A DNA stretch of 64,000 nt from Halanaerobiales bacterium (GTDB lineage: Bacteria; Bacillota; Halanaerobiia; Halanaerobiales; DTU029), in assembly GCA_029981855.1 (NCBI GenBank), contig JARRCS010000002.1:62001-126000 (forward strand). The letters run 5' to 3'. Under the pieces are notes generated by a model that saw only the letters and a program-made list of their open reading frames with translations, searched no databases and had not been told where the DNA came from. Below are positions 38,531 through 40,652 of the stretch, in pieces. The first letter of the stretch is position 1, and each line of letters opens with the position of its first letter. Position numbers and translations under genes: made by a program.

Positions 38531-39625
38531 TTAATCACCAAAACTGATTCCAATACTCCTGGCAACATTGACGAGTTCTCCTTCAGGGTCAACATTCTTC
38601 TGCTGCCCGATAACATCCTCAAGGGGAGCATAAGATATCTTACCACCTCTGAGGCTGACCATATTACCGAACTTGCCTTCCATGATTAAATCGACTGCTG
38701 CCTTACCGTATCTGGTAGATAGGATCCTGTCATAGGCTGTAGGCTTACCACCCCTCTGTAGATGACCGAGAATGGTTGCCCTTGTTTCCAGCTCTACCAA
38801 TTCCTCTAAGTCGCGAGCAATTTTTTGACCAATGCCACCCAGGCGGATCGGGTCAGGACTATCCTCTACTACCTGACTGACCACAACATCACCGGACTTA
38901 GGCTTTGCTCCTTCGGCAACTACCACAATGCTGAAGTCCTTACCGGCGCGTCTCCTCTCAACAATCTTCTCGGCTACCTTTTCGATATCATAGGGAATCT
39001 CCGGGATCAGGATAACATCTGCCCCACCGGCAATCCCGGCATGAAGGGCAATCCAGCCGGCATATCTACCCATAACCTCCAGGCACATAATCCGGTGATG
39101 GGATTCGGCAGTAGTATGCAGCCTGTCCAAAGCCTCGGTAGCAACCGACACGGCAGTATCAAAACCGAAGGTAACATCAGTTAAAGCCAGGTCATTATCA
39201 ATTGTCTTGGGTACACCGACAACCTTAACCCCTTTTCTGGCAAAATCCCTACCACTGGTCAGGGTTCCATCTCCACCGATGATAATCATGGCATCAATTC
39301 CGGCTTCTTCAATATTCTTTACCCCAACATCGGAAACATCCCGATAAACCGTTTTTCCATCCTCTTCAAAGGGGAACTTAAAGAGATTGGTCTTATTAGA
39401 AGTATAAAGGATGGTTCCTCCCAGGGGGAGTATTCCAGAGATTGCATCCATGTCCAGTTTCACCGTCTGCCCCAGGTACAGGCCGCGGTAACCGTTTTTA
39501 AAGCCGACAACCTCCAACCCGTATTTAAGAATGGCAGTCCTGGTAGCAGCCCTGATGACGGCATTTAAGCCGGGACAATCACCCCCGCCGGTTAGAATTC
39601 CTATCTTTTTAATCTTATTACCCAT
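38531..39625 (-). CDS. pfkA: 6-phosphofructokinase, group III-like
   Basis: It phosphorylates fructose-6-phosphate in glycolysis. The 364 residues include GILTGGGDCPGLNAVIR at 9-25, GGDGT at 117-121, PKTIDND at 139-145 and LEVMGRYAGWIALHAGIAGGAD. Classical ATP enzymes have PGTIDND, whereas a lysine there is found in PPi enzymes and in mixed group III enzymes. The Gly in GGDGT is the ATP-type residue. The Gly/Lys pair leaves the phosphoryl donor open (ATP or PPi). It is a single gene with a long leader holding a C+B repeat and a terminator. Confidence 0.9.
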   Translation of the reverse strand: MGNKIKKIGILTGGGDCPGLNAVIRAATRTAILKYGLEVVGFKNGYRGLYLGQTVKLDMDAISGILPLGGTILYTSNKTNLFKFPFEEDGKTVYRDVSDVGVKNIEEAGIDAMIIIGGDGTLTSGRDFARKGVKVVGVPKTIDNDLALTDVTFGFDTAVSVATEALDRLHTTAESHHRIMCLEVMGRYAGWIALHAGIAGGADVILIPEIPYDIEKVAEKIVERRRAGKDFSIVVVAEGAKPKSGDVVVSQVVEDSPDPIRLGGIGQKIARDLEELVELETRATILGHLQRGGKPTAYDRILSTRYGKAAVDLIMEGKFGNMVSLRGGKISYAPLEDVIGQQKNVDPEGELVNVARSIGISFGD

Positions 39626-39660: not shown

Positions 39661-39745
39661 ATGCCTGGGAATTTATGTTATTAAGATAACATAAATTCCG
39701 GCATCAACAAATGGCGAAACCAATTTGTTTTATTTTTTTGCCAAT
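39661..39745 (-). repeat. Composite repeat C+B, copy 2, in the pfkA leader
   Basis: Read on the minus strand: AAAACAAATTGGTTTCGCCATTTG, then TTGATGCCGG, arms GAATTTATGTTAT/ATAACATAAATTC, and CAGGCAT. The order and the junction ATGCCGG match copy 1 at 1,131-1,226. With the predicted promoter at 39.8 kb, the whole element is transcribed in the pfkA 5' leader and ends about 30 nt before the start codon. Confidence 0.75.
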
Positions 39746-39797: not shown

Positions 39798-39826
39798 ATT
39801 ATAAATTAGACTCGAGATTAAGTCAA
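39798..39826 (-). promoter_or_regulatory. Sigma-A promoter of pfkA
   Basis: TTGACT (39826-39821), a 17-nt spacer and TATAAT (39803-39798) form a near-consensus promoter about 170 nt before pfkA. Confidence 0.85.
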
Positions 39827-39856: not shown

Positions 39857-39943
39857 CTACCAGGCCTGATCCTGCCGGTCCCAGCAACCGGTAAGAAAGA
39901 TTAAAGCTATGATGATTAAACCAGCAATTAATCTGCAGTACAT
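39857..39943 (-). CDS. Tiny lipoprotein ORF (28 aa)
   Basis: ATG 39943 is preceded by GGGGG 8 nt upstream. The 28 codons encode a short basic start (MYCR), a hydrophobic helix (LIAGLIIIALIF) and a perfect lipobox LTGC, then only eight residues, WDRQDQAW, before TAG. If processed by signal peptidase II, the mature product is a lipidated nonapeptide starting at Cys20. It could be a micro-lipoprotein, a peptide signal derived from its leader, or the N-terminal relic of a lost lipoprotein. No partner gene is next to it; it lies between the phased repeat array and the pfkA promoter. Confidence 0.5.
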   Translation of the reverse strand: MYCRLIAGLIIIALIFLTGCWDRQDQAW

Positions 39944-39969
39944 TATTGATTCCCCCTTATCTTCCTGAT

Positions 39970-40502
39970 GAGAACCTGATACCATAGGCCAACCAGAGGA
40001 TCACCAGGGGCTTCCGTTCGCTCGATTAGGGGAAAGAGGGTAAAAATGTTCATCCCTTAAAAGACAAAGAAGCCAACAGTGATCTTCGCTCCGGCTACTG
40101 CAGATCCTAAGCTACCCGCAGCAATCTTTCGACTACTACGAATAGGTTCCGGACCTACAATAACCTTTGCTCGACCATAGCAGATCCAACATGGCATTAC
40201 CTACATCAATCTTCAATCTCCATTGAACACCAATGAGCTAAACACCATTCTCGACACCTGTAATGATCTCCCGACCATTACAGATACCTACTGGACCTAC
40301 TATGATCTTAGCTCGACCACCATAGATCGGTGACGAACCTGCCCCAATCTCCTCGACTGCAGGACAGATCCTTAGCGACCTATGATGATCTGCGCGCCGG
40401 CCATTACAGATCCCATCCGAACCTGTAATGACCTTTGCCCGACCAGTTCAGACCCGTCATACGAGCCTGAACCAGTCTGCGCTCAACCACTGTTGACCTC
40501 AC
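39970..40502. repeat. Phased degenerate repeat array (about 21/42 bp) between galK and pfkA
   Basis: About twenty units follow the pattern ACC-N6-GATC-N8, starting weakly near 39,970 and clear from 40,072. GATC or a one-base variant (GACC, AATC, GATA) falls near 40081, 40103, 40123, 40162, 40183, 40265, 40283, 40304, 40325, 40367, 40387, 40409, 40430, 40451, 40474 and 40495, mostly 20-23 bp apart. The variable 6-mers of neighbouring units are often complementary (TGTAAT/ATTACA, AGTTCA/TGAACC), and the outermost pair AACAGT/ACTGTT is exactly complementary. GC content is higher than in the other gaps. No gene is supported inside it, and 40,503-40,652 shows nothing further. Confidence 0.7.
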
Positions 40503-40652
40503 GTTAAATAGTTTATCCACTATCCAGATTAATATACATAAAAAATGAAAAACACAGAAAAATTTTTTCCGGTTTACAAAACATACCTGTTTCCAGGATA
40601 AAAAGAGGCTATTATTAACAAACTATATTGCATCACTAACAGTAACTTATTT

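Follow-up and report, generated by a model that had tools for sequence, protein, structure and literature searches.

A gene for a large structured RNA, with a promoter of forespore type, beside a probable severed gerC head in a Halanaerobiales genome

Bvs196 of B. velezensis is a 294-nt forespore RNA that is under the control of sigma-F and sigma-G, and its deletion lowers the resistance of spores to heat and UV (PMC9147052). CsfG, a forespore-restricted ncRNA under the same two sigma factors, is present in endospore formers (Marchais et al. 2011, cited in PMC9147052). Other bacterial RNAs are larger. OLE, ROOL and GOLLD are large, highly structured RNAs without a known protein product (PMC12286853), and OLE occurs in extremophilic Gram-positives according to a published abstract. 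The raiA motif, or ModT RNA, is a conserved structured RNA in Bacillota (PMC11706538).

We analysed a 64,000-nt stretch of a Halanaerobiales genome, hereafter the window, in which a small open reading frame (ORF) lies next to a large structured RNA gene (Table 1). It is very probable in our judgement that the minus strand of this locus encodes a trans-acting structural RNA of the forespore and, next to it, the severed head of a gerC gene. Bvs196 appears to be the closest described analogue of the RNA, the two being set beside each other by description only. Like our RNA, Bvs196/S357 is free-standing, has a sigma-F/sigma-G promoter a few nucleotides upstream and has a conserved fold (PMC9147052). 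Forespore-restricted expression and a rho-independent terminator are Bvs196/S357's own (PMC9147052), whereas our RNA has a forespore-type promoter and a T-rich end. Again by description only, Bvs196 has a length of 294 nt, a folding energy of −82.3 kcal/mol and a distribution over 253 Bacillus genomes (PMC9147052), as against 350–446 nt, −245 kcal/mol (in the window) and 120 of 267 genera for the RNA reported here. CsfG is small by its title and is likened to our RNA by description only. OLE, ROOL and GOLLD resemble it in size and ornateness (PMC12286853); unlike those RNAs, which are families in Rfam 15, it matches no Rfam 15 model and no phage record. The likeness to the raiA motif is that of a conserved structured RNA in Bacillota. 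No description of our RNA was found in Rfam 15 or in the literature searched, in which the full texts were those under open licence; what we report would thus be a new RNA family with a forespore-type promoter and with predicted expression and function.

Table 1. Features of the RNA gene, the ORF and their surroundings, in window coordinates
Feature	Position	Strand	Basis
GTATA, −35 element in the RNA's sigma-F/G-type promoter	40533..40537	-	
−10 element GGATAAACTA; spacer 14, sigma-F consensus 12/12, ends 10 nt before the RNA	40509..40518	-	
Gene of the 429-nt large structured RNA, the phased array (P1 closing helix, hairpins P2/P3, two-tier arms P4/P5/P6)	40070..40498	-	fold, covariation, distribution
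P1 5′ strand, pairs with 40084-40071	40485..40498	-	
3′ domain (arm P6 and P1 3′ strand), basis of covariance models R1 and R2	40070..40172	-	
T-rich tail CTTTGTCTTTTA after the closing helix, terminator-like	40058..40069	-	
36-aa frame; its TAA overlaps the ATG of the ORF (TAATG); no Pfam or NCBIfam match	39943..40053	-	
In-frame upstream extension of the ORF, alternative ATG 39985 (42 aa in all; the 28 codons are its 3′ part)	39944..39985	-	
Shine-Dalgarno-like AAGGGGG, 8 nt 5′ of the ATG	39952..39958	-	
28-codon ORF: signal peptide, LTGC lipobox, CWDRQDQAW, stop; Ger(x)C-type lipoprotein N-terminal head	39857..39943	-	sequence and Ger(x)C profile match
pfkA promoter TTGACT-17-TATAAT (11/12), 3′ of the ORF stop	39798..39826	-	
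pfkA (6-phosphofructokinase) reading frame; syntenic anchor common with G004	38531..39625	-	

An earlier, sequence-only reading of this DNA had suggested that the ORF be viewed together with a neighbouring phased array, which we took to be nucleotides 40070-40498. The suggestion was valuable, as the array is a structured RNA gene. Its minus strand had a minimum free energy of −245 kcal/mol (z −19.9), and none of 100 shuffled sequences folded as well; the z value of the plus strand was only −4.3. DNA identity with three related genomes (G004, G012 and G010) was 77-83% over 385-486 nt. Of the 92 homologues in which the 5′ end was placed, 51 full-length sequences remained after near-duplicates were thinned; they were aligned by MAFFT from sequence alone, and the structure was derived by RNAalifold from that same alignment. 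The resulting 148 pairs were standard in 96.0% of 7418 cells, compared with 76.1% in 500 shuffles and 30.5-43.2% when the partners were slid by one to three columns. Two-sided changes occurred in 118 of the 148 pairs, in 1517 cells as opposed to 411 in the shuffled controls. The pairing of P1 (99.7%) is inflated, since complementarity with the 3′ end was used to locate each 5′ end; the other helices are not affected by this. The conserved structure of the RNA and the strand that carries it are thus results of direct computation.

The helix lengths are 14 bp in P1, 16 bp in P2, 15 bp in P3 and 16 + 15 bp in P4, while P5 consists of 19 bp, a variable insert and 16 bp with a GAGA-type loop, and P6 of 16 + 15 bp with a GAAA-type loop. 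Because the strands of the arms resemble each other, the array appears phased, and model R1, which was built on the last arm, also matches inner arms of the same RNA. These arms explain what had looked like an oddity of the sequence. Tandem Repeats Finder reported no repeat, and a tandem repeat was therefore rejected. The most variable part of the RNA is the P5 arm (A3 alignment columns 288-348 and 387-454), in which an insertion of variable length differs in position among lineages.

Rfam includes the raiA family, and the Rfam search gave no raiA match. Against Rfam 15 the window yielded a single hit (E 0.49), outside the RNA, and the three hits in 17 loci from relatives concerned unrelated families and lay away from the position of the RNA. 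Membership in a known RNA family was rejected because the RNA had no Rfam 15 match in the window or at these 17 loci.

Promoter motifs were sought in the 60 nt upstream of the RNA by scoring against sigma consensus strings from the literature, including the sigma-F/G core GNATA-N13..16-GGNNANNHTA, and the expected numbers were obtained from 30 dinucleotide shuffles of each sequence. The 5′ end was placed in 92 of 100 homologues (350-446 nt, median 395); the other eight hits, for which no 5′ end could be assigned at 345-450 nt, are left out of the count, and two loci cut by contig ends (L054 in G010 and L166 in G085) lie outside the 100 or the 92. The sigma-F/G core matched at nine or more of 10 positions in 87 of the 92 homologues (3.3 expected) and at all 10 in 42 (0.2 expected). 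The spacer was nearly always 14-15 nt, and the −10 element ended 6-14 nt before the RNA. Matches to the strict sigma-F consensus at 12 of 12 positions were present in 16 homologues (0.07 expected), the window included, while at least 10 of 11 sigma-G positions matched in 44 (2.4 expected). The window sequence, GTATA-14-GGATAAACTA, therefore has the form of a forespore regulon promoter, the 12/12 score being relative to the consensus string used. A sigma-A or sigma-H promoter for the RNA was rejected for want of any excess: none of the 92 homologues had a sigma-A match of at least 11/12 (0.1 expected), and none had a sigma-H match. Sigma-E was in slight excess (at least 10/12 in nine homologues, 3.2 expected), of which the shared −35 element may be the cause. 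At the other end of the gene, at least five of eight nucleotides were T in 72 of 100 homologues, with a T content of 0.50 versus a background of 0.28. The promoter motif, like the fold, is a computed property of the family.

We also compared the surroundings of the RNA at 34 loci. No neighbour family was common to most of them, the largest cluster containing nine members that look like generic ABC ATPases, and the nearest downstream frame was on the opposite strand in 26 of the 34. A cis-regulatory role was rejected on these two grounds. The neighbour and promoter results together therefore identify the RNA as a free-standing gene with a forespore-type promoter. A large covarying fold and a free-standing gene are two attributes that it shares with the large ornate trans-acting RNAs. 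At three loci (L053, L054 and L162, in G012, G010 and G093) the RNA lies near one common cluster that is phoU-pst-like by eye.

Covariance model R1, of 103 positions, detected the RNA in 10 of 59 genomes of the class and in 134 of 398 genomes sampled from the phylum. Model R2, rebuilt from 103 matches, raised these counts to 11 and 172, respectively, and its positive genomes in the phylum span 120 of the 267 genera sampled. Both sets of counts are likely lower bounds because the filters were strict. Carriers include G004 (a Halanaerobiales MAG of the same family), Candidatus Frackibacter WG13 and a Clostridium sp. MAG. Genomes of the class contain one or two full copies. Two copies, each with a sigma-F/G-type promoter, were seen at L044/L045 (G046 C73, about 6.7 kb apart), L046/L047 (G048) and L043/L048 (G038). 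G039 has, at a distance from its main copy, a second and weak R1 match (C1:801491-801587, 37.6 bits) that may represent an RNA that has degenerated or diverged.

A blastn search with the RNA of 50,697 phage and 72,556 plasmid records gave no match, and one RNA pattern had no match in viral contigs. A shorter, 17-base pattern occurred in 14 viral contigs, none of which matched R1, and these occurrences are therefore attributed to chance. Since the phage and plasmid records and the viral contigs were without a true match, location of the array on mobile DNA was rejected. These searches bear on the idea that the array is not a gene but repetitive DNA of a mobile or minisatellite-like kind, as the likeness of its internal units, the inverted repeats at its ends and the two copies in several genomes could suggest. 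However, a repeat of that kind would leave unexplained why the class has just one or two full copies per genome, why the promoter and the T-rich end are conserved, why compensatory changes affect 118 of 148 pairs and why folding is so asymmetric between strands (z −19.9 minus, −4.3 plus). Together with the empty phage and plasmid searches, this makes a DNA repeat hardly credible.

As a marker of sporulation we searched these genomes for SpoIVA (PF09547), and the lists of RNA and SpoIVA genomes were compared by hand. SpoIVA was found in 27 of the 59 genomes of the class and in 336 of the 398 of the phylum. Within the class, the RNA was present in 11 of 27 SpoIVA-positive genomes and in none of the 32 SpoIVA-negative ones (Fisher 5e-5, phylogeny ignored); within the phylum, it was present in 167 of 336 and 5 of 62, respectively (Fisher 7e-11, phylogeny ignored). 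Thus 167 of the 172 RNA-positive genomes of the phylum had SpoIVA, and the phyletic link of the RNA to sporulation is shown computationally. As half of the SpoIVA-positive genomes had no detected RNA, the RNA is not universal. RNA-positive genomes without detected SpoIVA were G134, G176, G287, G333 and G380, with completeness values of 97, 80, 75, 61 and 90%. A distance of only about 1-1.5 kb separates the RNA from spoIVA in the genomes of one family (G348 C1:956695-958359, G101 C6:228698-230332 and G409 C27:50949-52596).

Our proposal is that 40498-40070 would be a free-standing large non-coding RNA gene with its own sigma-F/sigma-G-type promoter and T-rich 3′ end. In the product, a closing helix of 14 bp would hold together five arms, three of which are two-tier, with helices of about 15 bp. 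This RNA would most likely be transcribed in the forespore and act in trans as a structural RNA, perhaps serving the developing spore as a scaffold or RNP core, and not as a cis-regulator. A regulatory sRNA that mainly pairs with mRNAs, as the Bvs196 model would have it, is the principal competitor: that 294-nt forespore RNA is likewise under sigma-F/sigma-G, and its deletion alters spore resistance (PMC9147052). Our RNA, however, is about three quarters helical, and its conserved unpaired positions form short purine-rich linkers and GNRA-like loops instead of a long single-stranded seed. Because the molecule is mostly helical, we favour a structural or RNP role, which would be roughly twice as probable as base-pairing regulation; the latter we regard as unlikely.

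A broader form of the structural proposal, which we put forward tentatively and to which we give well below an even chance, is that this large RNA is ancient, hitherto undescribed and a dedicated endospore component. It would be made under sigma-F/sigma-G in the forespores of widely differing Bacillota as a rigid multi-arm molecule of roughly 15-bp helices with GNRA-like caps, and would be incorporated into the dormant spore as a scaffold or RNA-only assembly. Many lineages that sporulate would have retained it, and it would have disappeared where sporulation did. Although the genes of sporulation have been dissected one by one, protein-centred screens miss RNA genes. An RNA of 350-446 nt with 148 supported pairs, a forespore-type promoter that is near-universal among placed 5′ ends and a presence in 172 of 398 genomes is a candidate for a missing part of the spore programme, and it is a candidate with defined coordinates, promoter and structure.

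The neighbours of the ORF are the RNA gene and two frames that, by eye, we take to be galK and pfkA. The sequence-only reading had described a 28-codon frame at 39857-39943 with a strong RBS, an ATG, an LTGC lipobox and an eight-residue remainder. Its coordinates were exact, and the strand, which it had left unstated, is minus; the plus-strand translation of the interval is closed by many stops. The translation reads MYCRLIAGLIIIALIFLTGCWDRQDQAW in full. The product can be divided as MYCRLIAGLIIIALIFLTG/CWDRQDQAW, the slash preceding the lipid cysteine, with the ATG at 39943 and the stop at 39857. The RBS, the lipobox and the remainder WDRQDQAW were all found as described. When the 64-kb window was filtered for small ORFs that combine a lipobox with a hydrophobic run and an RBS-like motif, this ORF alone was recovered, and dinucleotide-shuffled windows gave a mean of 0.025 per window (40 shuffles), the filter having been composed after the ORF was seen. 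This combination of RBS, hydrophobic run and lipobox is more than chance.

A search of 18,950 NCBIfam families gave TIGR02887, Ger(x)C, as the best match of the ORF (E 0.0025, profile positions 7-22) and NF052517, GerXC, as the second best (E 0.046, profile positions 6-22). The better of these is weak in absolute terms, falling far short of the family cut-off, but both alignments fall at the profile's own N-terminus, where the lipobox belongs. When the 28-residue query was run against 61 genomes, its own included, matches at E up to 10 were obtained in 30. The best matches outside its own genome were the starts of open frames of about 370-430 aa, and all nine of these proteins that were scanned contained PF25198 as well as PF05504, the two domains of Ger(x)C. 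N-termini in these relatives read ...LTG/CWDRRD..., ...LSG/CWDRRD... and ...LTG/CWDLQD.... On a profile of 17 Ger(x)C N-termini the ORF scored 35.5 bits, compared with 11.0 for the best of 89,399 shuffled-window peptides. There is some circularity in this test, as all but one of the 17 profile sequences were themselves retrieved through their similarity to the ORF; the NCBIfam search is an independent test of identity.

Thus the ORF resembles Ger(x)C/GerAC germinant-receptor lipoproteins (TIGR02887, PF25198 and PF05504), as the computation shows directly, in having a signal peptide, an L-T-G-C lipobox and, immediately thereafter, CWDR[QR]D, with the family's conserved CW after the lipobox. Unlike them, it stops eight residues past the lipid cysteine, lacks the GerAC_N and GerAC domains and has no adjacent ger operon, gerA and gerB being absent beside it. 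Neither the 28-aa nor the 42-aa form had a Pfam match; the Pfam GerAC_N profile begins near the mature N-terminus. A chance frame without history would have to be reconciled with this resemblance. It is true that the ORF has a mere 28 codons, is unconserved and is without a Pfam match. Yet a signal peptide, a lipobox and CWDRxD occur jointly in it, its 35.5 bits being far above the 11.0 that no shuffled peptide exceeded, and Ger(x)C families take ranks 1 and 2 among the 18,950 at the correct profile positions. We therefore consider a chance origin quite improbable.

The ORF is most likely a severed gerC head, its status as a relic being suggested by comparison with relatives. The sequence-only reading had held that lack of conservation of the frame in relatives would tell against it, and that is what we found in the genomes searched, which come from outside the genus. 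G004 is the only relative found with the same order of RNA and pfkA; its 323-nt spacer has no clear similarity to that of the window, and the frame is absent between the two genes. The region upstream of pfkA in four other genomes of the family (G003, G005, G006 and G007) gave no match to the ORF, and G001 (pfkA start not located) and G002 (cut) were left out of this comparison. A conserved micro-gene was rejected on these results. The frame downstream of the ORF, in which the rest of a Ger(x)C protein was looked for, had no family match, and a gerC remnant there was rejected, as was a gerA or gerB remnant in the 36-aa upstream frame, again with no family match. An overlap such as TAATG, which joins that frame to the ORF, would be expected of a former operon junction. 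Elsewhere, the same genome encodes a single complete Ger(x)C.

The gap of 126 nt that separates the RNA from the start codon of the ORF contains no sigma-F/G match and only one sigma-A-like site (8/12). With no good promoter of either type in the gap, the ORF would be translated at most from read-through. pfkA has a strong promoter of its own, which lies 3′ of the ORF stop; a transcript initiated at that promoter does not include the ORF. The start, RBS and lipobox are intact, and the ORF may still be translated. An alternative is a functional micro-lipoprotein, in which read-through from the RNA promoter in the forespore would yield a lipidated CWDRQDQAW that imitates Ger(x)C in miniature or as a decoy. 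Such a product would fit an ORF that has its RBS, start, signal peptide and lipobox all intact and is the sole one of its kind in the window, that lies 126 nt downstream of a forespore-type RNA on the same strand, and whose genome retains a complete Ger(x)C. Against it, the syntenic place in G004 has no frame, the best matches in relatives begin long frames and not 28-aa ones (Ger(x)C in nine of nine checked), the 126 nt before the ORF lack a good promoter and the T-rich 3′ end of the RNA should halt transcription. We judge it improbable. Of the three readings offered earlier, the surviving head of a lost lipoprotein held up, Ger(x)C being that lipoprotein, while a conserved micro-lipoprotein and a peptide signal were not supported. 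As a severed gerC head the ORF itself is minor, although it would illustrate that the loss of a germinant-receptor gene can produce a stub that looks convincingly like a lipoprotein gene.

The interval from the ORF to pfkA contains a palindromic segment of about 50 bp (39661-39712) that includes a perfect 14-nt inverted repeat (39668-39699). It belongs to a short dispersed repeat family, for which the copies listed are a lower bound, and it recurs in its own genome (G000) at C28:45957, C4:14526, C19:108831, C20:13266, C1:63172 (window position 1172) and C5:2200.
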